Positions 25,001 through 60,189 of a DNA stretch of 64,000 bases are shown here, in pieces; position 1 is the first letter of the stretch, and the number at the start of each line of letters is the position of its first letter. This stretch comes from a candidate division WOR-3 bacterium (GTDB taxonomy: Bacteria; SDB-A). The stretch lies in assembly GCA_016926475.1 (NCBI GenBank), contig JAFGON010000023.1, positions 1 through 64,000 on the forward strand. The letters run 5' to 3'. A program made the translations under genes and the position numbers. The notes beneath the pieces are model-generated. The model was not told where the DNA came from. It did not search any database and saw nothing but the letters and a program-made list of their open reading frames with translations.

Positions 25001-27127
25001 GAGGGTCCAGTTGGACGAAGACCCCGTCCAGCCGGGCAAAGTCGCTCCCATCCAAGATACGTTGAATGTTCCCGTGTAAATCGGATTTACATTTTCGCTC
25101 GGGATCGTGTCCCAATTTCTTCCGTTGCTGTTCCATCCGCTCGGCATTGAAGCGGAGCCGTAAAACAAATCAACGCCGTCTTCGTTGTAAGCGCTTTCGT
25201 ACCACATCCAGAAGAAAAGAACCGCTGAATCGGCAAAAGACGTGTTGATATCCGGAGTTCTGAACCAACTCGCATTTTGATCGTATATTCCGTCGAGGTC
25301 TGTCGCGGTGACGTTCACGCCCGACCTGGCCGACAAGGGGCCAACTACGGGTATTCCCCTCTGCCAGTCACCGGAAAAATAGTATCCGGCGGTGTCCATC
25401 TCGAACTCAAACCCGCTGTAATAAACAGTCCTGGCGTGAAGGGCGACGGTCAAATGTTCAGGAGACCACCCGGAAAGCCTTGTAGTGTCGCCGGAATCTC
25501 TGACCCTCGATCTGACGAAATACGTCCCTACCTCGTCGTAAGTTTTCTGTGCTAAGGGGTAGATATTCCATCCGGAATAGGTCCCGTCTCCCCAGTCGAA
25601 TTGGTATTCGACCGCTCCAGCGACAACTTCAGAAGTGAAGTTGTATGAATTATAAGTTATACAGGTATCCGGACCTGTCGGCGCGGTAGTGGGTCCCGGT
25701 ATCAGCATAACTGTGTCGAGTCTTATATCGTCTATGTAAAAACCTGCTCTGTTTCCGGTTGTTCCGTCGTTGTCCCCGAGCCTCCAAAGAAGTCTTAAAT
25801 CCGTGGCGTATTTGTACGGGGTCAGGTCCACCTGGTAGAGCGTCCAAATAGGATTCGAACCTGTCCAGCCGGGCATGGTCGTGCTTGTCCACGTGACGTT
25901 GTAGCTGCCTGTGTATGCGGGGACTATGCTCGCGCTCGGCACGGTGTCCCAGTAATAACCCGCGTTGTTCAGCCCCCACGTGAAGGAAGCGCTTCCTACC
26001 CAGAGGTTGACTCCGTCGTAATCCTGGCGGGAGTCATACCACATCCAGAAATCGAGGATGACCGAATCGCACATTGAAAGGTTTACCTCGGGCGTGTTCA
26101 GCCAGCTCGCGTTCGTGTAGTAATTTTCGTTTAACCTGGTCGCCCAAACATTTCCCCCGCTTCGGGCTCTAAACGGACCTGAAAGCGGAATACCCCACTG
26201 CCAGTCCCCGAGCTGGTGCAGGCCGACGAAACCTCCGTCGTCGACTTCAAAACCCCAATAATAAGCGGTTTTCGGAGTCACCATGACGGCGAGAAGAGGT
26301 GGGGACCAGTTTGAAACCAGCGAACTGTCGTTGGCGTCACGGATCCTGGTCTGGACGAAATACGTTCCGGGGGTGGTCCAGGAGCGGGAAGACGAGGTTG
26401 AAATATCCCACGCCGAATAGCCACCGTCCCCCCACGAGAACTGGTATTCGTAATCTCCTGGTACGACTTCCGAAGTATAGACGTAATTTGTCTCTACGAG
26501 TCCGCTGTCAGTCCCTAAAGGTGCCGTCGTTGGACCCGGGATGTTTCCCCCCTGAAACGTCATTATTGAGATGTTGTCCAGACCCAGGTAAAAGTCGGGC
26601 CTGAGAGGGGAACCTCCCCCTCCCCTGTAGGCAAAACCTAACTGAATGGTGTCATAACCCATTGCGTAAGATGAGATGTCGACGGAATCCCATATCGAAA
26701 GATCTGTGCCGTAATAATATTTCAACTGCTGCCAGTTCGTCCAAGCACCCGCGGCACAGCTCCGTATAAGAATTGAAGCGGTGTCGCGGTCTCTGCCAGC
26801 CCTGTAATTGTAACCTATGGAATACTTCAGCCATTGAGTGTAGAAAAGAGAGTCCGAAATCTTGGGCGAATAGAGAGTGTCCCTGAGGACATAGTTGCCG
26901 GCTCTGTTGCTGCATATCCACATGCTCATCGTCAATGGGTCAAGAGGCCTTATGGCTTCCTGGTCGTAAACCCTCCACTGCCACCTGCGGGGCCAGTTTT
27001 GACCCTGTATTCTCTTGGCGGAGTTCCATCCGTCGGCCCAGGGATCTGTCTCAAAATCCCAGAAATGATAAGCCGACAGAGTGTAAGCTGTAATCAGCAA
27101 ACTCAAAAAAATTACTATTTTTTTCAT
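22085..27127 (-). CDS. Giant multidomain surface protein with PKD-like, jelly-roll, kelch-like and FlgD-like domains
   Basis: 1680 residues from ATG 27127 (GGAGGGG lies inside the four-codon upstream alternative). A signal peptide is followed by jelly-roll (MAM/immune-inhibitor-like) modules near 20-200, 288-460, 569-745, 855-1000 and 1012-1175, each with a YxDDI or DNI strand. Three PKD-like modules with a WGDGxYSxW-type core lie near 232, 512 and 796. A CARDB-like domain lies near 1205-1285, a kelch-like propeller near 1289-1560, and a FlgD-like domain (WDGKDDRGTSLSAGTYFWML) at the end. Modules 2 and 3 are clearly an internal duplication. It is the last gene of the minor-pilin operon. Adhesion is inference. 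Confidence 0.85.
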   Translation of the reverse strand: MKKIVIFLSLLITAYTLSAYHFWDFETDPWADGWNSAKRIQGQNWPRRWQWRVYDQEAIRPLDPLTMSMWICSNRAGNYVLRDTLYSPKISDSLFYTQWLKYSIGYNYRAGRDRDTASILIRSCAAGAWTNWQQLKYYYGTDLSIWDSVDISSYAMGYDTIQLGFAYRGGGGSPLRPDFYLGLDNISIMTFQGGNIPGPTTAPLGTDSGLVETNYVYTSEVVPGDYEYQFSWGDGGYSAWDISTSSSRSWTTPGTYFVQTRIRDANDSSLVSNWSPPLLAVMVTPKTAYYWGFEVDDGGFVGLHQLGDWQWGIPLSGPFRARSGGNVWATRLNENYYTNASWLNTPEVNLSMCDSVILDFWMWYDSRQDYDGVNLWVGSASFTWGLNNAGYYWDTVPSASIVPAYTGSYNVTWTSTTMPGWTGSNPIWTLYQVDLTPYKYATDLRLLWRLGDNDGTTGNRAGFYIDDIRLDTVMLIPGPTTAPTGPDTCITYNSYNFTSEVVAGAVEYQFDWGDGTYSGWNIYPLAQKTYDEVGTYFVRSRVRDSGDTTRLSGWSPEHLTVALHARTVYYSGFEFEMDTAGYYFSGDWQRGIPVVGPLSARSGVNVTATDLDGIYDQNASWFRTPDINTSFADSAVLFFWMWYESAYNEDGVDLFYGSASMPSGWNSNGRNWDTIPSENVNPIYTGTFNVSWMGATLPGWTGSSSNWTLYSVNLTGIKNYTDLQILWRLSDNNGTTGNGPGFYIDDIRVDTFMRPLIGPLHPPFGPTWGYVSTNYAFLSDSAITGMGTLEYQFSWGDSAYSSWSTDRNAIHQWSAEGLYGIRTRARIQSDTTLIGQWSPPHYIEVGASGYFDPPWTFEPGNQGWKISSNWERKSSSWYSGWEMTSGDNWSMWAIGTGKNYVCDTTFSPSAPVSVDYQYLCWTGCLRKSTSVQGDTAIVMLRTFRNTVWGDWEAVYFYTTNTNPNWFYQEILQLFGADSVQVGVIYTHREGPSYDRFFGIDNVWLLNRPYLEEVVWNFEDQAKWDWTHTVSVNWPNGWNIRDEGTVSSLELDNAGNYSAWIGNTSSHSTPLVDTIKSPAEWNPVDLQYFVWGIGFNNAYDSIKVLMCGLKEGSWTAWQEIKTYYRATTPSFRALDSADVSDSFANASKIEVAFAYYATQNYGACVIDNIYLSSSVDKDAFVGGGDPNIQGVFQPAGSSSIREVVKNNGTQTANFSVRAVVTDINSGSVLMNETRDVTGLSYLDSVIVDFGDVDLVEDHHYIKKIIIEYPGDANPHNDTSIYSVRCVTPSWEPIADMPIAVAGPVSWIDDAGDVNVFGDTLHMKYDATGNVWSVVSSIPYKITDAQGVSATDKVYMLSSDSSLAGKLIIFDKLTGSFQTQDLPNTVNSPVLAFFEGIGGDYIYVIESNLTEKPSCYFFDENSEEFMLASPLPGGFEGGLSVSSREGIALAGGDIYGGNVYFGRVSAASPVVINWSTDYRTPLRNTGKISAGSSGSYMVFAGGQSSGVFSANSYLYENGYGWYQIDNLPSPLSSASITAREAEGSSDTVEVRDFFLVGGRNSSGALSDAYRLVLKTKKTMGMESSSEAIGPSEVFSVRLASSNVFMDEVSIRLSLPGNSSVRWLVYDISGRQVREIETFLPAGTHIVSWDGKDDRGTSLSAGTYFWMLRTDFGSENGKFLHVR

Positions 27128-27138
27128 CTTCCCCTCCA

Positions 27139-29895
27139 TCAGTAAACTTCGTTCCAGTAGACGTATTTCTTTTTAAATCCTGGACCTGTTATCTCTCTGA
27201 TTATAGGTCCGGAACTGGTCATCACAATGACCACAGGTCCGTCAGGACCGACAGTGACCTGCGGAGAGGAAGGGACTCCAATGTGTCCGAGGTCTATAGC
27301 CTCCAAGAGTCTGCCTTCGAGCAGCGACGCGACATACATTCTCGCGTAACCCGCTCCAATGTCGCAGGGGCCTGCTTCTGCTGTGTCGGGGGCGAATGTC
27401 GTCCAATATACGTTGTTGCTGTAAATGAGAGGAAGAGACGTGACTTTCTCTCCGGGGTGGGTGTGCCTGTAGTAATACCCGTAATCACCAGGAGGGGTCG
27501 CTGCTGTCGTCAACTCGGCCATGTCGGATATTGTCGCCGCCGCGCCGGATGCCGGAGGCGATTTGAGCATTAGGAAGTAACCGACTTTCGTTGTGTCCAT
27601 TGGGTTGTCCCTGTTTCCGGAACCCCAGCAATACCAGTGTTCTCCGCTGAAATCTTGAGCTACAGCGACGGGGAAAAAGCAAGTCATGTCGGCGTCGGCC
27701 GGGACTCCCGCGCTCCCGCTGAAAGCTGTATAAACCGACCAATTTGAAGGATTTGTATCTGATTCTGTGTCCATTATCAGGAGGTTTCCGCCCAGATCCG
27801 GAGCAACCACCATGTCGACGAAGCCGTTTACGTTCATATCCGTCATCGCCAGAGAAGCCGGCACTCCGTTTCCGTTGGGGTTTTCCCATCCTTTTGCCCA
27901 TGCGGTGTTTCCGGTCAAAGCGTAAAAAGCGAAGAAATCTCCCGTGTCCGCTACGAAAGATCCTGAAGTGTCGGGGACGTATCCCCCACCCATGAAAAAT
28001 CCCCACATGGGAATTGCCGTGTCGTTGCTGACGGGGTCCACATCCACTTTGAACTGACCCGCTGTGGGCTGGGACCAGGTGTCTCCAAACCTTTTATAAA
28101 GGCCTCCGATGAGAGTTCCGGATATTTCGGTGATCAACTTGGGATAAGAAGAAGTGTCTGTCGGCGCCGGCACCTCGGTTATATCGAGAATTATGTAGTT
28201 GTTGCCGCCTTCTCTCTGCCCCACAATCAAAATTGTTCGCCAGTCGGTCGGGTCTTTCACACCGTCTCCGTCCAAGTCGGCCCACAAATCGGCGGCGGTG
28301 ACCGGTCCGTCTAAAATATAGGTGTGCTGGTTGTCGAGCGCCCAAACCCTGAGTTTGTTCATCGCGAATTTCGGCACCCAAGCCCAGACTTCATGCCCGG
28401 TAGAGGCGTCTATACAGTGAAGCGTACCCGTGTTTGTACCGACGTACACCCTTTTTCTGCTGTCTCTGTAAGCGTGGTTTTTTCTGTAAACCACGTATGA
28501 CGGGTCGCCTGTGTAAAATGGGCTCGGGGCGCCTATCATCAGAGGAGCGCTGTGAAATATGTCTCCCATCTTCCATCCAGGAGACGCGTTGCTGTAACCC
28601 TCTCTCGTCCTCTGGACGATGAGGTCTTTTTCCCAGGCGGTGCCGACGTTGACTTCCGAGGGCAGGACATTCAGAAAACTGAAGTCGGATTTGAGTCCAA
28701 GCTGATTCGTGTAGAAAATTTTTCTGCTCGCGGAAGGGGTCTGCTGAAGAGATTCTCCCGCGGTCCAGATTTCAGAACCCAAAAATGTGTCGCCCGTGAA
28801 AACGACAGCTCTGAGCTGACCATCCCAAAACCCTCCTCCCTGAGGACGGAAAGTCGCGTAAACTATCGCCGTGTCGCTTATCATAGTCCTGACAACAGGG
28901 ACACTCGCCGGTGAGAACGAAAAGTTGTTCTCGAGAATCGACTGGAAAATATCATGCAGGGATTGAGCGAGCTCATCGGCGGTCTGAGCTATATAGGCGT
29001 AACCCTCGCAGTAATGAAAAGAAGGAGGCAGGGCTTGATAGCCCGTCGAGTAGGCGGATTTTGGGTTGTACCATCCGTTTGATGACCCCCAACCGCTTCC
29101 AATGGGTTGTGGCCATGTCCACGGATTGTGAACGTGTGTGTGGGGGGGGTTGTACATCATGTCTGAATAGTTGTATTTATCGAGATTGTCGGTCCCTCCC
29201 CAGTATGCCGCCCAGTTCAGTTCGTTTCTTCCTTTTTGTGTTATTCCTGTGCCGAAACCGACCATGAAAGCCGGAATATCTCTGTCTTGGTTGCTCACCG
29301 AGGCTTCTCGGACAAGCGACCAGCTTCCGAGCCAGTCGTTTGATTCGGTTATCTGGGTGTAAGACGCGTTTGTTCCATAGCCGTTTGATTCCCCGTCAGT
29401 TATATGTATCAGGTAATAACTCCTGCAGTCGAGGTCTGGATGGGTTGAGTCGTATTCGTGTATCCATTTTGAAGAAAAGTAAATCGCAGGGCCGTTAGGA
29501 GTCCAACCTCCATTTGTGGTGTAGTTGATGTGGGACCATATCGTCGAATAGGGCGTCCCGAAAGTGTCCGCTCTCAAAGAACCCGTCGCCTCCCCGGGCA
29601 GATAGATATACGGACCGGGGTTGTACGTTCCCGAAGGGGTGTTATAAAAAAATCCAGTTGCCAGATCGACGCCGAGAATATCCCTGTCGGAGTCTTCCAC
29701 CACTCCGTCTTTGTCTGCGTCGAGAAGGCTTTTTATGACCTGCAGAGCCTGGGTTATTCTCGATCCGGCCATGCTGCCCGACCTGTCGAGAAAAATCATG
29801 GCCGCAGGTTCAGCCGCGACGCGGAACAGGACTTCATCGTTGGCGAGCAGCAAAGCGGGAAAGACAAGCAAGATAAATAAATTTTTCCACTTCAT
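27139..29895 (-). CDS. PilY1-like type IV pilus tip protein with VWA domain
   Basis: 918 residues with a signal peptide. A von Willebrand A region contains a MIDAS-type motif DRSGS (Asp37, Ser39, Ser41) and YLIHITDGESNGYG. The second half from about residue 485 is a PilY1-like propeller (VYVGTNTGTLHCIDASTG, DGPVTAADLWADLDGDGVKD). PilY1 acts at the pilus tip in adhesion and priming. It follows four prepilin-type genes and one unknown gene, as in classical fimU-pilVWXY operons. The stop lies 11 bp before the ATG of the giant protein. Confidence 0.88.
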   Translation of the reverse strand: MKWKNLFILLVFPALLLANDEVLFRVAAEPAAMIFLDRSGSMAGSRITQALQVIKSLLDADKDGVVEDSDRDILGVDLATGFFYNTPSGTYNPGPYIYLPGEATGSLRADTFGTPYSTIWSHINYTTNGGWTPNGPAIYFSSKWIHEYDSTHPDLDCRSYYLIHITDGESNGYGTNASYTQITESNDWLGSWSLVREASVSNQDRDIPAFMVGFGTGITQKGRNELNWAAYWGGTDNLDKYNYSDMMYNPPHTHVHNPWTWPQPIGSGWGSSNGWYNPKSAYSTGYQALPPSFHYCEGYAYIAQTADELAQSLHDIFQSILENNFSFSPASVPVVRTMISDTAIVYATFRPQGGGFWDGQLRAVVFTGDTFLGSEIWTAGESLQQTPSASRKIFYTNQLGLKSDFSFLNVLPSEVNVGTAWEKDLIVQRTREGYSNASPGWKMGDIFHSAPLMIGAPSPFYTGDPSYVVYRKNHAYRDSRKRVYVGTNTGTLHCIDASTGHEVWAWVPKFAMNKLRVWALDNQHTYILDGPVTAADLWADLDGDGVKDPTDWRTILIVGQREGGNNYIILDITEVPAPTDTSSYPKLITEISGTLIGGLYKRFGDTWSQPTAGQFKVDVDPVSNDTAIPMWGFFMGGGYVPDTSGSFVADTGDFFAFYALTGNTAWAKGWENPNGNGVPASLAMTDMNVNGFVDMVVAPDLGGNLLIMDTESDTNPSNWSVYTAFSGSAGVPADADMTCFFPVAVAQDFSGEHWYCWGSGNRDNPMDTTKVGYFLMLKSPPASGAAATISDMAELTTAATPPGDYGYYYRHTHPGEKVTSLPLIYSNNVYWTTFAPDTAEAGPCDIGAGYARMYVASLLEGRLLEAIDLGHIGVPSSPQVTVGPDGPVVIVMTSSGPIIREITGPGFKKKYVYWNEVY

Positions 29896-51078: not shown

Positions 51079-51696
51079 TTATTTGTCAGGTGTTTCTTTG
51101 AAAATGTCGAAAAGTTCTTTTATATCCGACATGTAAATTTTTACAACTTCATCTTTATCCTTCTTGAACCTGTTCTCGGAAAATCCAATGAAGTAGCTGT
51201 GAAAAATCGACCTTATAACAACGTTCAGAAGATCTGCCCTCTTTTTGGGAATCCCGCAAAATTCTGCCGCCTTTTGAAAAGCCTGGCTTTCCAATCGAGT
51301 TGTTTTCGATTCCATCAGCTTGGAAATGACATTAGGGGTGTTTTTTCCGAAATATGTAAAATTTATGAGCCTGAAAGCGTCTTTGTGTTCGAAAGCGTAA
51401 TAAGCGATCGCCTTCCTAATCTGTTGAAACCGATCAAGCGGGGTTTCAAATACTACATCTTTTGTAAATCTTGCTATATATTCGAAAATATCATCCATGA
51501 ACTTAAGGGCAACGTAGTATTTTAATTCGTGTATGTCTTTGAAATACGAATACAATGTCGCGTAATGGTATCCTGCAATATCAGCTACTTTTCTGACGCT
51601 TAAATACTGAATGCCTTCTTTTTCTATTACCTGACAAGCGGCATCTACAAAGTAACCTAATGTTCTCTTTTTTCTGATCTCCCTTTTTGACTCCAT
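51079..51696 (-). CDS. TetR-family regulator divergent from a micropeptide unit
   Basis: 205 residues. N-terminal helix-turn-helix: YLSVRKVADIAGYHYATLYSYFKDIHELK. The rest is helical with aromatic-rich segments (AFRLINFTYFGKNTPNVISK), as in TetR ligand domains. The ATG is 8 bp below a TATAAT (51710-51705) with no Shine-Dalgarno, so it is probably near-leaderless. It is divergent from two tiny ORFs, with a dyad lying over their promoter, so it is the likely repressor. Confidence 0.88.
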   Translation of the reverse strand: MESKREIRKKRTLGYFVDAACQVIEKEGIQYLSVRKVADIAGYHYATLYSYFKDIHELKYYVALKFMDDIFEYIARFTKDVVFETPLDRFQQIRKAIAYYAFEHKDAFRLINFTYFGKNTPNVISKLMESKTTRLESQAFQKAAEFCGIPKKRADLLNVVIRSIFHSYFIGFSENRFKKDKDEVVKIYMSDIKELFDIFKETPDK

Positions 51697-51743
51697 GTAT
51701 ATATATTATAAAAAAAAATCTTTTTGGTAAAGAAAAAAAACCC

Positions 51744-51772
51744 TTGACAAATAATCAAACAATGTTTAATAT
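51744..51772 (+). promoter_or_regulatory. Near-consensus promoter of the micropeptide unit with overlapping dyad
   Basis: TTGACA (51744-51749), 17-bp spacer, TAATAT (51767-51772). An inverted repeat AACAAT/ATTGTT (51758-51763 with 51776-51781, 12-bp centre) spans the -10 and is a candidate site for the divergent TetR protein. Confidence 0.75.
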
Positions 51773-51818
51773 TTAATTGTTGTTTTAATTACAACCGTCG
51801 TTTAAAAGGAGGAAGAAA

Positions 51819-51938
51819 ATGAAAGTTTTAAAGAAAAAGAAAATTAACGGCAAAAAAATCCTGAAAAAGAAAATCAAAGGACAAAAACCAATGACAGAAA
51901 GGTTTTACCTGTCGTGGAACCCTTTGTTTTTGTGGTGA
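51819..51938 (+). CDS. 39-residue Lys-rich peptide with aromatic C terminus
   Basis: Translation: a basic N-terminal half with two imperfect Lys blocks (KKKKINGKK and LKKKIKGQK), then PMTERFYLSWNPLFLW at the end, rich in Trp, Phe, Tyr and Leu. AGGAGG lies 7-11 bp before the ATG, among the best ribosome sites in the window. It sits between a near-consensus promoter and a strong terminator. The charge layout suggests membrane activity or a precursor peptide. No family was recognised. Confidence 0.65.
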   Translation: MKVLKKKKINGKKILKKKIKGQKPMTERFYLSWNPLFLW

Positions 51939-51942
51939 AAAA

Positions 51943-52050
51943 ATGGATGAGAGAAAACTCGGTTCTTTGTCTTCGGTGGTAAAGTCCGTCGTTTCTTTTG
52001 ACGAATCGAAGATAAAAGTGTTTGAAGATTTTTATATTCAAAGAATCTAA
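51943..52050 (+). CDS. 35-residue peptide, second ORF of the micropeptide unit
   Basis: ATG four bases after the first peptide stop, with a weak GGTG upstream, so translation would rely on coupling. The sequence begins MDERKLGSLSSVVKSVVSFD and ends KVFEDFYIQRI. It has a small repeat SVVxSVVSF and mixed charge, unlike the basic first peptide. It ends 20 bp before the terminator hairpin. No homologue is known to me; it may be a partner or immunity-like peptide, or noncoding. Confidence 0.45.
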   Translation: MDERKLGSLSSVVKSVVSFDESKIKVFEDFYIQRI

Positions 52051-52070
52051 AAAAGCGTATTTATTTTTCG

Positions 52071-52106
52071 CCGGCGAATTTATATAATAATTCGCCGGTT
52101 TTTTTT
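52071..52106 (+). terminator. Strong terminator closing the micropeptide unit
   Basis: Perfect 10-bp stem CCGGCGAATT/AATTCGCCGG (52071-52080 with 52089-52098), 8-nt loop, followed by eight T. It separates the micropeptides from the amidohydrolase. Confidence 0.95.
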
Positions 52107-52122
52107 CAAAATTGGAGAATTT

Positions 52123-53484
52123 TTGTTAGCGTTGAAAAATTGCATGTCAATAGCGACTTTCGACGGCGAAGAAAGAGAGCTGTCAAACCATGATATAATA
52201 GTTGAAGGCAACAAGATTAAAAAAATCTCCAAATCCCCTTCAATAAGTCAAGATTTTGATGGAGAGATCCTCGACTGCAGCAGCCACCTCGTCCTGCCAG
52301 GCTTTACAAACACCCACCACCACATGTTCCAATCCCTCACAAGGAATTTAAAACAGGTACAAAACGCCAAGTTGTTCGATTGGCTGAAATTCCTATACGA
52401 CAAATGGGTTAACATTGACGAGGACTGTGTCTATTATTCCACTCTTTTATGCTGCTCCGAACTGATGCTTACCGGATGTTCGGCTTCTTCAGACCACATG
52501 TACTTGTACCCGCCGCAAATTTCAAAGAGTATACTCGGGGTTCAGTTTGAGGCGGCAAAAAAAGCGGGGATCAGGTTTTCCCCTTCCCGGGGAGCGATGA
52601 CAAGAGGAAAAAGCGACGGCGGGCTCCCCCCCGATAAAATAGTCCAAAAATGGGATGTTGTTTTGAAGGACATGGACGATTCAATCTCAAAGTTTCATGA
52701 TCCTTCTCCTTTCTCGATGAGCAGGGTGATATTGGCGCCGTGCAGTCCATTTACCGTCGAAGAAAACCTCATGAAAGAAACCGCCTCTCTCGCCAGGACC
52801 AAAGAAGTCATAATGCACACTCATTTGGCTGAAACAAAAGACGAGGAAGAATACTGCATGGAAATCTACGGTAAAAGACCTCTCGGTCTTATGTCGGATC
52901 TTGGATGGCTTGGCAAGGATGTTTATTTCGCCCATGGAATATACTTCACAGAAGATGAATTGGATTTGCTCGCAGAAACAAACACAGGAGTCTCCCACTG
53001 TCCGACTTCAAATATGCGCTTAGGCTCTGGAGCTGCGAAAATCCAAAAGATGAAAGATCTAGGAGTCAGAATTTCACTCGGTGTCGACGGTTCTTCTTCA
53101 AACGATACCTCTGACATGCTCGCGGAAGCTCGAAACGCTTTGCTTCTCGCCCGAGTATTTGGAGGACCGGATGCTCTGACGGCAAGAGAAGTTTTACGTT
53201 TTGCCGCAAAGGGCGGCGCGCAGATGCTCGGTTTTGAAAACTCCGGTACTTTAGAAGAAGGTAAAGCTGCCGATATCGCAGTCTTTGATCTCGGCGGCAT
53301 AGACAGGGCTGGATCTCTGTCTGATCCTGTCGCCTCTATTATCTTTACCGGTTTTTCACATAAAACCGCATACACAATTATTGACGGTAAAATCGTCGTG
53401 AGAAACGGTCAACTCGTATCAATAGACGAAAGACAGATATCGGAAAAGGTTAACTCTCTTTCAAAAAAACTCATCGAAAAATAG
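52123..53484 (+). CDS. Amidohydrolase of the 8-oxoguanine/guanine deaminase or chlorohydrolase group
   Basis: 453 residues, TTG start with GGAG nearby. Metal ligands are visible in NTHHHMFQSLTRN, HTHLAETKDEEEYC and HCPTSNMRLGSG, then SLGVDGSSSNDTSDML with the catalytic Asp. The C terminus has the GTLEEGKAADIAVFDL signature of subtype III amidohydrolases (SsnA, guanine deaminase, AtzB-like). The likely reaction is deamination of a purine-like ring. It begins 17 bp after the terminator, so it needs readthrough or its own promoter. Confidence 0.87.
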   Translation: MLALKNCMSIATFDGEERELSNHDIIVEGNKIKKISKSPSISQDFDGEILDCSSHLVLPGFTNTHHHMFQSLTRNLKQVQNAKLFDWLKFLYDKWVNIDEDCVYYSTLLCCSELMLTGCSASSDHMYLYPPQISKSILGVQFEAAKKAGIRFSPSRGAMTRGKSDGGLPPDKIVQKWDVVLKDMDDSISKFHDPSPFSMSRVILAPCSPFTVEENLMKETASLARTKEVIMHTHLAETKDEEEYCMEIYGKRPLGLMSDLGWLGKDVYFAHGIYFTEDELDLLAETNTGVSHCPTSNMRLGSGAAKIQKMKDLGVRISLGVDGSSSNDTSDMLAEARNALLLARVFGGPDALTAREVLRFAAKGGAQMLGFENSGTLEEGKAADIAVFDLGGIDRAGSLSDPVASIIFTGFSHKTAYTIIDGKIVVRNGQLVSIDERQISEKVNSLSKKLIEK

Positions 53485-53497
53485 CATTAGCAAAATC

Positions 53498-54778
53498 TCA
53501 ATCGCAGTACACTACAGGCAGTTCATTCCAATTCGTCGTGTACCTCTTTGACAATTTTTTTCTTTTCATTTTCCAGGAATTATCAAATCCTGAAGAGGCG
53601 AAGCCCACGGTTTCTCTTCCCATTTTTCGGTTTATTTCGTCTATGGTTTTTATTATTTTATTTTTGGATTGGTCTTCTTCTTCGAAAATCGACTTGCTGA
53701 TCTCATCCTTTTTGATGATTCCGGTAAAAACAACCCCTGCTTTTTTATATTTGTACCCACTCCTGAATATGTTCTCCAAAGCTTTATGAGAATGTTTTAT
53801 TAGTGAGGGGGTATAGTTCGTCGGGTTTTTAATCCTTACATCTGACCAGTTCGCGTATTGTTCTTCGTCCTCGTTGAACCTGTCGGTAGTTATGTAAACA
53901 GTCATCGACAACGGGACCGCGTTTTGGCTTCTCAGCTTGACAGCAGCCAAAGTAACGTATTGTGAAAGGGCGTTTTTCAACTCTTCAATTTTCTCTACAG
54001 TTCTGCCGAAAGATCTTGAACAGGCCATGCCCTTTTTGTCCGATGGCATGTTTTCAATGTCAATGCATGGCTCTCCGTTCAGTTCGAGTAAGGTTTTCAA
54101 TCCAACTACCGTTAAATTTTTCAAAATCCATTCTCTGTCAGCATTTTTTAAATCCAAAGCTGTAAAAACACCTTTTGAAGCCAGCTTTAAAGATTGCTTT
54201 GCTCCGATTCCCCAGACATCTTCGGTTCCAAGGTTTTGGAGAATTTTGTCGATTTTCTCAAATTTATATATGTCGACAGCACCAGAACCGTTTTTTTTTG
54301 CTTCTTTTGTAGCTATTTTCGACAACGTCTTTGTCTCGGCTATTCCAACTGAAACAGGTATTCCTGTCCATTTCAAAACAGTCTTCTTTATTTTTAATCC
54401 CAGGTCTAAAAGCCTTTTTTCTTCAAATCCTTCAAGGAGGACAAAGGCCTCATCTATCGAATATACTTCAACATCAGATGAAAATTGCCTCAGGGTCTGC
54501 ATTACCCTTATAGACATGTCTTGGTAAAGTTCGTAGTTGGATGAAAACACTTTCACTGAGTTCTGTTCTATGAAGTTTTTTATCTTGAAAACCGGAACTC
54601 CCATTTTGATTCCCAGCGCTTTTGCCTCTTCAGACCTTGAGACCACACAGCCGTCGTTGTTTGAGAGGACGACAACTGGCACGCCTTTCAAAGATGGAGC
54701 GAAAACCCTCTCGCAGGAGACGTAAAAATTATTGCAGTCCACGAGGGCTATGGGAGGATGATACAAAGGGCTTTTCAT
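53498..54778 (-). CDS. umuC: DNA polymerase V catalytic subunit (Y family)
   Basis: 426 residues. Y-family active-site segments are [18 protein letters not shown] and [16 protein letters not shown] helix-hairpin-helix region follows ([19 protein letters not shown]), then the little finger and a UmuC-type C-terminal tail. It performs translesion synthesis with UmuD'. Its ATG directly follows the umuD stop (TGAATG). Confidence 0.94.
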
Positions 54779-55219
54779 TCAAGCCAATGGATGAATCACG
54801 TAAGTCACAACGCCCCAGACCTCAAAATTCATTTCAGGTTTTACTTCAATGGGCTTGTATTCAGCGTTTTCAGGGACAAGATATATTTTTTCTTTCTTTT
54901 TGTGTATCCTCTTGACTGTAAATTCCCCGTCGATTACAGCGATTACAACCCTGTTGTTGCCTGGTTTTTCAGCCCTGTCGACGATGAGGATGTCCCCTGA
55001 ATTGATACCCGCGCCTACCATGGAATCGCCCGAGACTTTGATAAAAAAAGTCGCCGATGGGTGTTTTATCAGAAATTCGTTTAGGTCGAGTTTGTTTTCG
55101 GCGTAATCTTCAGCCGGAGAAGGAAATCCAGCGGATATTTTGACTTCGAAACATGGAATTTTTATTTCTGCTTTTTTTTCGAATGAAAACATTTCTGTGA
55201 CTTTGATCTCTTTTCTCAT
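54779..55219 (-). CDS. umuD: UmuD-like S24 self-cleaving protein
   Basis: 146 residues from ATG 55219. The cleavage-site region AGFPSPAEDY, the catalytic Ser in KVSGDSMVGAGI and the Lys in EFTVKRIHKK are present. It cleaves itself on RecA filaments and joins UmuC. The longer frame to 55255 has no support. A TAGAAT 7 bp upstream suggests a leaderless mRNA. I see no E. coli- or Gram-positive-type LexA box, so SOS control may use another motif. Confidence 0.92.
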   Translation of the reverse strand: MRKEIKVTEMFSFEKKAEIKIPCFEVKISAGFPSPAEDYAENKLDLNEFLIKHPSATFFIKVSGDSMVGAGINSGDILIVDRAEKPGNNRVVIAVIDGEFTVKRIHKKKEKIYLVPENAEYKPIEVKPEMNFEVWGVVTYVIHPLA

Positions 55220-55226
55220 TGGATTA

Positions 55227-55255
55227 ATTCTATTTGTTTGAGGGTCTAAAAGCAA
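55227..55255 (-). promoter_or_regulatory. Candidate promoter of umuDC, near-leaderless
   Basis: Minus strand TTGCTT (55255-55250), 17-bp spacer, TAGAAT (55232-55227). Predicted start is within one base of ATG 55219. The -35 is weak. Confidence 0.5.
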
Positions 55256-55288
55256 TTGAAGGTTGAAAATCTTTTGTCTTAACCCCCT

Positions 55289-56485
55289 CTACATTGTGAT
55301 TTTGTCGATTATTTTTTCTTTTATTTCTTCAAATGCCATAAATTTTGAAAACTCTTCTCTGTTTTTGTAAATTTCGGCAAAAGGATAAATTCTTCTTTTA
55401 AATAAGGAAATCACCCTGGAGACATAGGCAATAAAAACGTCAGGAAAAGGGGCTTCAATTTTCTCCATCTCGATTATGTGCTTTGGGGTTGGAAACAGAC
55501 TAAAATAAAGAGAGACAAGGTTTCTCAAGAAACCGGATTTTTTTTTGAATCTGCTGAAAGATGTGTGTACCGTCTGCTGTTTTTTAAGAGAAAAAATCAA
55601 CGCGTCTTCGAGAGTATTTTCATCAATAGACGCCTTTTGTACAATTTCTGATAACTCTTCGGGAAGTTCGACTCCAAATAACGCATTGACAGCTTTTGCA
55701 ACAAGTCCAACTGCCTTTATGGCTTTTGTTTCATGCGCTATTTCTGAAAACTTTTGCCACTGGATTTCTTCTTTTTTTAAAAAAAGACCAATATCCAAAA
55801 AATGCAGAAGCTTGACTTGGAAAACATGAAGGAAAGCAATATGAAGACACAAATACAGCAGTAAATGTTCTTTCGACAAAACCTTGCATTTTACGTTTCC
55901 GATTTGAACATTTGTTGCGTCTGCCCAGACCTCTTCCATATCCAGCAAAAATGGATTATCAGGAGGCAAAAGGTTCCAATGAACTTCGATTTTCAATGGT
56001 TTCACGCCGCTGTAGATCTTTTCTGATACAGTATATCCATAGTGATAATGGTACTTTTCAATCCAGGTAATGTTCCAATTTTCTGGAACCGAGATTTTCT
56101 TCATGCTTTTATGAGCCTTTTCAACATGGGCTTTTTTGACCAATATGTCCAAATCTGACATGGGCCTCTGTTTGAAAGAGCGGTATATCTCCTGGGCAAC
56201 ATGCGGGCCTTTCAAAACAATGAGGTCTATTCCATCTACGGAAAAAAGTTTTTCAACCTTTTCCAAAATCGCCAAATAAGCCAGCGAATCCCTCCACGCA
56301 GGTGCGTAGCCAGAGGAAAGCGATTCAAAGATTTGGGGGGGGACATCCGCTTTTTCTGATTTTAAAACTTCCGAAAGGTACCCCGAAAGAGAGTGGTATT
56401 GTGCCTCTTTGGCAACTCTTTTCCACCCCTTTTCATCAATACCAGACGGAAATTTTTTTTCCTTTGCAAGTGAAAGGATATCCAA
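55289..56485 (-). CDS. Nucleotidyltransferase-family protein (PF14907-like)
   Basis: 398 residues. The central signature is LIVLKGPHVAQEIYRSFKQR followed by PMSDLDILVKKAHVEKA, with the two metal-binding Asp (SDLDI) of the minimal nucleotidyltransferase fold. Helical regions flank it. Members of this family occur beside ABC exporters in peptide and polysaccharide gene clusters; the acceptor is unknown. It is downstream of the ABC exporter gene (22-bp gap) in a three-gene minus-strand operon. Confidence 0.8.
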   Translation of the reverse strand: MDILSLAKEKKFPSGIDEKGWKRVAKEAQYHSLSGYLSEVLKSEKADVPPQIFESLSSGYAPAWRDSLAYLAILEKVEKLFSVDGIDLIVLKGPHVAQEIYRSFKQRPMSDLDILVKKAHVEKAHKSMKKISVPENWNITWIEKYHYHYGYTVSEKIYSGVKPLKIEVHWNLLPPDNPFLLDMEEVWADATNVQIGNVKCKVLSKEHLLLYLCLHIAFLHVFQVKLLHFLDIGLFLKKEEIQWQKFSEIAHETKAIKAVGLVAKAVNALFGVELPEELSEIVQKASIDENTLEDALIFSLKKQQTVHTSFSRFKKKSGFLRNLVSLYFSLFPTPKHIIEMEKIEAPFPDVFIAYVSRVISLFKRRIYPFAEIYKNREEFSKFMAFEEIKEKIIDKITM

Positions 56486-56507
56486 AAACAGGTCTATTGT
56501 CTTTCTT

Positions 56508-58301
56508 TTATTTTGCCTGTTCTTGCAGACTTTTTGCGTAAAGCTCGGCGTAAAACCCTTCTCTTTTTATAAGGTTTTCATGAGAATCCATCTCAACAAC
56601 AGTGCCTTTGTCGAGAACGTATATGATGTCGGCATGCTTGACGTTTGAAAACTTATGGCTGATCAGCGCGACTACAGCTTTTTTTGATAGGGCTTTGACC
56701 TTTTGTAAAAACAGACGTTCCGTCTCCGGGTCGAGATGGGAAGTCGGCTCGTCAAAAATATAGACAGGCGCCCTTTTAAAAAGGCACCTGGCCAAAGCCA
56801 GCTTCTGCCATTCGCCAAAACTCAGCTCTTCTCCTCCCTTGAACCATTTCCCCAGCTTTGTGTTTATGCCTTCGGTCAACTTATCCAAAATATTAACAGC
56901 TCCCGCGTCTCTTAGAGACTCTACCACAGACTCGTTTTCCATTAACCTTTCAACGTCTCCTATGCTTACGTTTTCAGCAAGGGTGAGCTGGTATTTCTGG
57001 AAGTCTTGAAACACCAAAGAGACCGAATCGTACCACTTCATGGGTTCAATTCTCTTCAAATCAATACTGTCGACAAATACGCTGCCCCCGTCCGGGTCGT
57101 ATAGACGGCACAATATTTTCGCGATTGTCGATTTTCCGGATCCGTTGCTCCCGACAATAGCCGTAAATCTGCCCTTTTCAAGCGTCAAGTTCAGGTCATC
57201 GAGAGCTTTCAGTTTCGAACCGGGATAGGAAAACACTACTTTTCTTAGAGAGATCTTTTCAACATTTTCAAATTTCGATTCAACACCAGGGGGCGACGTA
57301 ATAATTTTTGTTTTTAAACCCAAAAATTCAGCGAAATAAGACAGGAAAAGGCTGTTTTCATAAAGTCCGACAAACCCTCCAAGCAACCCCTTGAGACTCC
57401 CTTGCCCTCTTTGGAAAGCCTGTAAAAACATGACCAGGTTTCCGAGAGAGATCTCCCCTCTATAGGTTTTAAAAGTCATAAAAACCATGAGCAAAGCTAG
57501 GATGGAAGACGAAAATACTTGTGAAGAAAAATCCGCGGCGGATTTTTTTATCTTAATTGATATTAGTTTTCTTCTGATAGTGTTTCTAATGCTTTGAAAT
57601 CTATCTCTGAACAACTGGAATGTGCTGAAAATCTTCACTTCTTTCGAGGAACTTTCCGAAGTCAAAAGATAATTGTAATACCAAGTCTCTCTTTCTTTTT
57701 CTGTTATTCTTTTCTGCCACGAGTATATTTTTTTAACGAAATAAAGCTGGACAAAAGTACCGGGAATTACGGCGGCAAAAAGAATCAATCCTACTAAACT
57801 GTTTACGGAAAATATCAGCACCGCTACCCCTGAAAACGTTAAGAGGTTTTGGAAAATCGAAAAAAACTGGTTGAGGGTGTTGACTGGTCTGTAGGGGGAT
57901 TCTCTTTGAGCCCTGTGTAGGGTGTCGTAATAAACAGGATTGTCGTAGTATGCTATGTCGATTTCAGAGGATTTTTTATGCATAATTTCATAGACTTTGT
58001 CGGATGTTTTAAGCGAAAAGTATTCCGAGACAATATCGTTCAAGGAATCCGCTAAAAAACTGACGAAGTAGGCGGCTCCCGCCGCGGCGATCAGAGCAAT
58101 AGACTTTAACATTCCTTGTTCTGGATTAGTCGAAGAAAGACTTGTAGCAACTGAATCTACAAAAAGTTTCACGATATACAAAAGCAAAACTGGTATCGCG
58201 GAGCGTATCACAGTCAGAATAATTCTGGCGAAAAAAAGTTTTTTTGAAGCGTAAAAAACGACCGCTATAGCGTTTTTAAGTCTAGAAAAACTATTTTTCA
58301 A
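56508..58301 (-). CDS. ABC exporter, fused permease and ATPase
   Basis: 597 residues. Six transmembrane helices occupy about 1-310. The nucleotide-binding domain has Walker A IVGSNGSGKSTIAKIL, signature LSFGEWQKLALARCLF and Walker B APVYIFDEPTSHLDPE. The signature LSFGE differs from the common LSGGQ by two residues, as in some lipid and peptide exporters. ATGA overlap with the upstream lipoprotein gene couples them. The cargo is unknown. Confidence 0.92.
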   Translation of the reverse strand: MKNSFSRLKNAIAVVFYASKKLFFARIILTVIRSAIPVLLLYIVKLFVDSVATSLSSTNPEQGMLKSIALIAAAGAAYFVSFLADSLNDIVSEYFSLKTSDKVYEIMHKKSSEIDIAYYDNPVYYDTLHRAQRESPYRPVNTLNQFFSIFQNLLTFSGVAVLIFSVNSLVGLILFAAVIPGTFVQLYFVKKIYSWQKRITEKERETWYYNYLLTSESSSKEVKIFSTFQLFRDRFQSIRNTIRRKLISIKIKKSAADFSSQVFSSSILALLMVFMTFKTYRGEISLGNLVMFLQAFQRGQGSLKGLLGGFVGLYENSLFLSYFAEFLGLKTKIITSPPGVESKFENVEKISLRKVVFSYPGSKLKALDDLNLTLEKGRFTAIVGSNGSGKSTIAKILCRLYDPDGGSVFVDSIDLKRIEPMKWYDSVSLVFQDFQKYQLTLAENVSIGDVERLMENESVVESLRDAGAVNILDKLTEGINTKLGKWFKGGEELSFGEWQKLALARCLFKRAPVYIFDEPTSHLDPETERLFLQKVKALSKKAVVALISHKFSNVKHADIIYVLDKGTVVEMDSHENLIKREGFYAELYAKSLQEQAK

Positions 58302-59161: not shown

Positions 59162-59806
59162 ATGAAAAAAGAGATGTTTTTATTGGCTTTGGTTTGTTTT
59201 TTTTTCAACGGATGCACCAAAAATACAGACGAGATTGTCACGGCTGCAAAACAAAAACCATCCGACAACTACACGTGCTTTGTTCTTTCTTTACCCGACA
59301 GCTGCAACTGTCTTAAAAACGGAAAATATATCATGCCCTTGGATCATTCGGAAGTGACGGAAGGAGCTTACTCCAGTTTATCTCTTAATTTCAATTCTGT
59401 TTTGGAATCAGATCAAACGGTTTATTTCGATTTAATGCTTCCAGCCACCGAGAAATTTTCTGTTTTTGTCGGAATGTGCACTCCCCTGGGGTGTATCCTG
59501 GACTGTGAAAAGCCAGAAAGTTCGTTTTCAATCTCTGAAGACGAATACACGAACCTGAAAACTTTATACGGCGATCCATTATCTCCTTCTATGACAGTCA
59601 CCATCGTTAAAGGAGTGGATACGTTGGAAAAGGTTGTTTTCGACAAATTCAGAATTGCAATAGACTCCTTCTCCGTCGAAAGCACGCTGGTAACTCTCCG
59701 TTCCAGCCATGTCGAGCTTTCAAGCTCTTCGGACCCGGAATTGCGTTTGGAGGGCGAGATCTACATCTCCGGACAGGAACCCGCACAGACAATGGTAGAG
59801 CAGTGA
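59162..59806 (+). CDS. Hypothetical lipoprotein
   Basis: 214 residues with AAGGAGAG before the ATG. Lipobox FFFNGC (Cys about residue 18). Cys pairs in the body (DSCNC, GMCTPLGCILDC) suggest disulfides. No family was recognised. It is coupled to the protease-inhibitor gene by a 4-bp overlap (GTGA or a nearby ATG), so the two are probably made together. Confidence 0.7.
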   Translation: MKKEMFLLALVCFFFNGCTKNTDEIVTAAKQKPSDNYTCFVLSLPDSCNCLKNGKYIMPLDHSEVTEGAYSSLSLNFNSVLESDQTVYFDLMLPATEKFSVFVGMCTPLGCILDCEKPESSFSISEDEYTNLKTLYGDPLSPSMTVTIVKGVDTLEKVVFDKFRIAIDSFSVESTLVTLRSSHVELSSSSDPELRLEGEIYISGQEPAQTMVEQ

Positions 59807-60189
59807 ACATGCGGTTAATGCGTTTTCTGCTTCTGCTTTTGACTTTTAGCTGTTCGGTAAAAAACAGCACGGTCTTTGACCAGTCTTTTAACCGAGACAC
59901 TGTTTCCCTGTGTTTCAGACAAAAATTTTCTATCGTTCTTCCATCAAACCCTACAACGGGATACAAATGGGGGATAGACTCCTCAAAAAGCGGATTTTTT
60001 TCACTGGAAAGCGCACTCTTCGTGCAGAATAACAGTGGTGTTCTAGGTTCAGGGGGCAGAGAAATTTTCTTTTTCCAGGCGCCGGAAGAAAATTTATCCA
60101 GGCTATCAATGGTTTACAAGCGCGACTGGGAGGAAAAACCGGGGATTGACTCTTTTGTGCTTTTCTTTAAACTGCAAACGGTTTTTTAG
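59803..60189 (+). CDS. Chagasin-family (I42) cysteine-protease inhibitor lipoprotein
   Basis: 128 residues (GTG 59803; ATG 59809 or 59818 are alternatives). Lipobox LLTFSC. Chagasin loop motifs are present: NPTTGYKW (loop BC), GVLGSGGRE (loop DE, GxGG-like) and YKRDWEE in place of the usual RPW loop. The family inhibits papain-like cysteine peptidases by inserting these loops in the active cleft. It may protect the cell surface from its own or foreign proteases. Confidence 0.82.
   Translation: MNMRLMRFLLLLLTFSCSVKNSTVFDQSFNRDTVSLCFRQKFSIVLPSNPTTGYKWGIDSSKSGFFSLESALFVQNNSGVLGSGGREIFFFQAPEENLSRLSMVYKRDWEEKPGIDSFVLFFKLQTVF

Follow-up and report, generated by a model that had tools for sequence, protein, structure and literature searches.

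The described systems closest to the locus analyzed here include the following. TetR repressors that control a divergent promoter standing on its own share with it the TetR fold, the divergent gene and a palindrome in the promoter spacer. The short peptides TnaC and SpeFL act at the end of their own translation: TnaC stalls at its UGA stop codon, where RF2 is bound in an inactive state, and RF1 is the factor blocked by SpeFL (PMC8429421). Like these, our locus has an ORF of fewer than 40 codons whose residues close to the C-terminal end, ahead of the stop, are conserved, and a metabolic gene follows downstream. The window studied here, a stretch of 64,000 nucleotides on contig 23 of a 2.15 Mb genome, was compared among all four genomes of the phylum examined, namely the source genome (G000), two members of the same genus (G001 and G002) and an outgroup of the same family (G003). 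Judged by this comparison of sequences, the window holds a TetR-linked operon of micropeptides that is genuine, restricted to this lineage and under purifying selection. Repressor-controlled small-protein operons are already known as a kind; the peptides themselves are new.

All parts listed in the initial annotation are in place, that is the promoter, the ribosome binding site, the 39- and 35-codon ORFs, the terminator and the divergent TetR gene. The locus is syntenic in both congeners, in the order lipoprotein gene, TetR gene, two small ORFs, terminator and amidohydrolase gene, with UmuC and UmuD on the opposite strand, and homologous copies of the unit in the data number three (G000, G001 and G002). 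In G001 the locus is broken across the ends of contigs C2 and C73, and adjacency of TetR and peptides in this genome is therefore deduced from gene order. The sigma-70-type promoter TTGACA-17-TAATAT (51744-51772, plus strand) has a counterpart in G001, G002 and G003. Taken by consensus alone it is not beyond chance in AT-rich DNA: the region contains seven promoter-like sites, where shuffles give 5.2. The case for the unit is therefore drawn from the relatives. What is conserved in the four genomes is TTGACA, a spacer containing AAACAnTGTTT and the -10 box. The pattern TTGACA-N(4-12)-AAACAnTGTTT occurs once per genome in four out of four (reversed-pattern control, 0) and each time precedes two short ORFs. 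Because this promoter-operator is unique in every genome and three species have retained both ORFs, the unit as a whole goes beyond chance.

The palindrome within this element (AAACAATGTTT, 51757-51767, a site without strand) lies in the spacer between the -35 and -10 boxes, adjoining the latter, and is the putative TetR operator. It is invariant across the four genomes except for the central base. A dyad over the -10 box had been described before as AACAAT/ATTGTT; a conserved dyad near this box does exist, namely AAACAnTGTTT, but the former sequence is not kept in the relatives and was rejected as main operator by this comparison. A wider AAACAnTGTTT regulon was also considered: there are ten sites genome-wide (control, four), the others have no TTGACA box, and no regulon emerges. 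The divergent gene (51079-51696, minus strand) encodes a TetR-family repressor, whose helix-turn-helix domain matches TetR_N (PF00440) with an E value of 5e-07 and 29.8 bits at a cut-off of 24. The protein is 71% and 64% identical to its counterparts in the two congeners and 42% to that of G003, and the recognition-helix region is nearly invariant from G000 through G003. An AlphaFold model (pLDDT 85) has an all-helical TetR fold with a ligand domain, and Foldseek aligns it to TetR proteins with TM scores up to ~0.74. Since the operator is conserved and the recognition-helix region nearly invariant, binding of this TetR to AAACAnTGTTT is likely. The solved structures nearest by sequence are FadR-like and generic TetR proteins (E ~1e-4), and the fold search of the model indicates no ligand class.

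The first small ORF, ORF1 (51819-51938, plus strand), starts with an ATG at 51819 preceded by AGGAGG and encodes a peptide of 39 amino acids with a net charge of about +12 and the C-terminal sequence SWNPLFLW. Its length is 39 codons in all three members of the genus (MKVLKKKKINGKKILKKKIKGQKPMTERFYLSWNPLFLW, MKKVVLKKENTKKSINKRIREHKSKTARYLFSWNPLFIW and MKKKSTAKTIQKKTLRKKLTHRLLKKEVPSFSWNPLFIW). The Lys-rich front drifts yet remains basic (net charge +10 to +12), and conservation is strongest at the extreme C-terminus, where S32, W33, N34, P35, L36, F37 and W39 are invariant. As expected of arrest peptides, residues are conserved right up to the stop: all three species end in SWNPLF[LI]W-TGA, including an identical stop codon (UGA). 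Between G001 and G002 the final nine codons are separated by six changes, all of them synonymous, with identities of 9/9, 9/9 and 3/9 at the first, second and third codon position. In a neutral-drift simulation with 20,000 runs both frames stayed open in 1.3% of the runs, and not one of the 20,000 kept seven of the eight tail residues in both relatives. By these measures the amino acids of the ORF1 tail are under purifying selection. The earlier proposal of a membrane-active peptide or a secreted signal finds no positive support, because the amphipathicity of the Lys-rich part does not exceed what its composition predicts (hydrophobic moment 0.54-0.61 versus 0.58-0.60 in shuffles) and inspection of ORF1 reveals no signal peptide; a transmembrane segment was not seen by inspection either. 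An AlphaFold model of ORF1, obtained from two sequences, consists of one helix at moderate to low confidence and is uninformative.

Four bases past the ORF1 stop follows the ATG of ORF2 (51943-52050, plus strand), which encodes 35 amino acids with the core FDESKIKVF. An ORF of 38 and 37 amino acids occupies the equivalent place in the two congeners, the core conserved in three species being [FY]DES[KR]IxxF, and in G001 and G002 its ribosome binding site overlaps the ORF1 stop (TGGTGAGG). The ratio of non-synonymous to synonymous changes in the core is ~0.3-0.6, uncorrected and with few synonymous sites there, and selection on ORF2 is less well supported than selection on ORF1. The codons GAC GAA TCG AAG ATA (52000-52014) are near-unchanged at third positions in three species, which possibly reflects an extra constraint at the RNA level. 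Loss of the reading frames in relatives had been named at the outset as the finding that would count against the unit; in G001 and G002 both frames are kept.

When 84,980 species genomes were scanned for the tail motif with its stop, with every fixed residue required so that relatives altered at any one would escape, one congener and three chance-like matches came up. These three (Bacillus, Thioclava and Turicibacter) lack a Lys-rich ORF ahead of the motif, and chance accounts for their number. The motif has no match in IMG/VR, and a profile of ORF1 run over 386 genomes gave strong matches in the three congeners only. Neither ORF1 nor ORF2 matches a profile above cut-off in Pfam, NCBIfam, PHROGs or PADLOC, small-protein and RiPP precursor families among them, and a literature search for the string WNPLF found none. 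Thus, the first peptide appears to be a real yet unexplained small-protein family, present in all three sequenced species of the genus and nowhere else searched. Conservation of the frames, the conserved operator and the lack of family matches together support the idea of a dedicated, repressed micropeptide unit of no recognized family.

The unit is closed by an intrinsic terminator (52070-52106, plus strand). Its hairpin and eight T (52099-52106) were recognized correctly in the initial annotation, while the stem (52070-52099) has 11 pairs and not 10 bp. A GC-rich hairpin followed by T-rich sequence stands after ORF2 in G001 and G002 as well, and in G002 the arms are altered on both sides. 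As the hairpin is kept after ORF2 in the three congeners, the main transcript should carry only the two peptides. The stem begins ~17-19 nt past the ORF2 stop. The longest upstream complement to a terminator arm is 6 nt with at most four G-C pairs and is unshared between the species; the coding part shows no conserved RNA fold (folding z from -1.7 to +1.3). A classical attenuator is therefore unsupported. Rfam has no match within the window.

Downstream lies an amidohydrolase gene (52123-53484, plus strand; TTG start at 52123) that is the next gene after the unit in all three congeners. The product matches 8-oxoguanine deaminase (NF006055; 557.9 bits, curated cut-off 532), with 3hpa and 7ww2 as relatives in the PDB, and this activity is predicted for it. 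The terminator does directly precede this gene, as stated before, although the TTG follows the T run at 16 bp rather than 17. A promoter scan of the window found no deaminase promoter between the promoter of the unit and TTG 52123, and the same scan in the relatives gave a single weak match, inside ORF2 of G002 only. In G000 and G001 the loop of the terminator contains a TATAAT (52083-52088), which was discarded as a hidden deaminase promoter because no -35 box was found and G002 lacks it. Polymerases probably reach the deaminase gene by reading through the conserved terminator, and it would then be co-transcribed with the unit. Beyond it, a run of genes on the minus strand (53498-58301) encodes UmuC, an UmuD-like S24 peptidase, an NTP_transf_5 protein and an ABC exporter in an order common to G001, and 59803-60189 encodes a Chagasin-family (I42) peptidase inhibitor. 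Elsewhere in the source genome, contig C40 carries two PqqD domains ~3 kb apart (25992-29237), one of them fused to a radical-SAM protein, possibly a peptide-modification locus.

In the outgroup G003 the promoter-operator (contig C387, 3643-4044) is followed by ORFs of 31 and 44 codons with strong ribosome binding sites, their own terminator and a convergent gene. Neither TetR nor deaminase adjoins this unit: the TetR gene has a different amidohydrolase as neighbor on a separate contig, where the related site AAACTATGTTT is found, and the deaminase orthologue (56%) is in a separate operon. Since the G003 promoter-operator unit stands apart from the deaminase, it suggests that such a unit can exist without this enzyme. 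Homology of the G003 peptides was tested by shuffles and not demonstrated; 245 of 2000 shuffles score as well as G003 ORF2 against the genus, and for ORF1 no similarity to the genus peptide was found. It is hence the promoter and the layout, and not the peptides, that speak for independence from the deaminase. The short ORFs on C387 look unrelated to those of the genus, as if replaced or diverged beyond recognition under a kept promoter. On contig C111 (L048, 3000-4110) the TetR homologue is divergent from an amidohydrolase that by eye is imidazolonepropionase-like, with the site named above in between, making this a second TetR-amidohydrolase pairing.

We favor, with a probability of roughly 55%, an operon, repressed by TetR and ended by a terminator, whose two lineage-restricted micropeptides act in trans, over a leader acting in cis. 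The divergent TetR would block RNA polymerase by binding AAACAnTGTTT in the -35/-10 spacer; upon binding of its ligand, a transcript of ~300 nt ending at the intrinsic terminator would be made. Translation of ORF1 would start from its strong ribosome binding site, and that of ORF2 would be coupled to it where ORF1 stops. The tail SWNPLF[LI]W of the basic ORF1 peptide may dock on a partner, be it a protein, the ribosome or a membrane surface, with the Lys-rich front contributing electrostatic contact, and the ORF2 peptide would probably be its companion. Some polymerases may pass the terminator and give low-level 8-oxoguanine deaminase. Points against action in trans are that conservation right up to the stop is equally expected of an arrest peptide and that the deaminase gene adjoins the unit in every one of the three congeners. 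This leads to the main rival, possible though clearly less probable, in which SWNPLF[LI]W-UGA is a nascent-chain signal in cis that slows termination of translation and thereby controls ORF2 translation and read-through into the deaminase gene. It would account for the peak of conservation at the extreme C-terminus and into the identical UGA, for the ORF2 ribosome site overlapping the ORF1 stop in G001 and G002, for a deaminase gene that starts 16 bp past the terminator and for which no separate promoter was found, and for the joint absence of tail and downstream deaminase in G003. However, the terminator arm has no conserved antiterminator partner, folding of the coding part is not conserved, the stem starts outside the usual ribosome footprint counted from the ORF2 stop, and two ORFs ahead of the terminator are unusual for an attenuator. 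The attenuator that had been put forward as the alternative for this locus has thus become less probable, also in view of the deaminase-free unit of the outgroup. A more far-reaching version, which we regard as unlikely, takes SWNPLF[LI]W-UGA as a new ligand-sensing arrest sequence under a TetR promoter, so that a sensor of transcription and a second one at translation termination would jointly gate ORF2 and the purine deaminase.

That the transcript itself is the functional product, as a small regulatory RNA with the ORFs secondary, is very unlikely. It is short and terminated, and the ORF2 codons GAA TCG ArG ATA vary little even at third positions, but the changes in the ORF1 tail between G001 and G002 fall mostly on third positions (9, 9 and 3 of 9 identities), and neither an Rfam match nor a conserved fold was found. 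Less probable again is a pair of peptides acting as toxin and antitoxin or on membranes: a repressor controlling two tiny coupled ORFs, and a basic peptide containing Trp, would suit it, whereas no transmembrane segment is seen by inspection, the hydrophobic moment equals that of shuffles, PADLOC and Pfam give no match, and the locus is chromosomal and syntenic. Least probable of all is that ORF1 is a RiPP precursor with the aromatic tail as core. Its conserved C-terminal part and variable front, a PqqD-radical-SAM enzyme gene in the genomes, and the ABC exporter and NTP_transf_5 protein 3-7 kb away are compatible with this, but no modifying enzyme is encoded beside the unit, the PqqD-radical-SAM protein is on another contig, PqqD also occurs in G003, which has no such tail, and a variable Lys-rich front is unlike a leader recognized by a PqqD domain.

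We thus describe, from a lineage that has not been cultured, selection on two ORFs of fewer than 40 codons that match no family known so far. With a candidate regulator and a tail of eight residues at hand, the function of these micropeptides can be tested. Should the tail prove to be an arrest signal, it would be a new sequence class of nascent-chain sensor outside the usual model bacteria; if the peptide acts in trans, as we favor, it would represent an orphan family of small proteins that comes with an inducible system already built in. Compared to TnaC and SpeFL, the unit differs in the tail sequence, in the separate control by TetR and in the second conserved ORF, and it has an intrinsic terminator without antiterminator; the placement of the tail is alike. 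The 8-oxoguanine deaminase follows the micropeptide operon in this genus, while in the outgroup it is part of another operon. Compared to usual TetR systems, the difference lies in the target, which here is an operon of two micropeptides.
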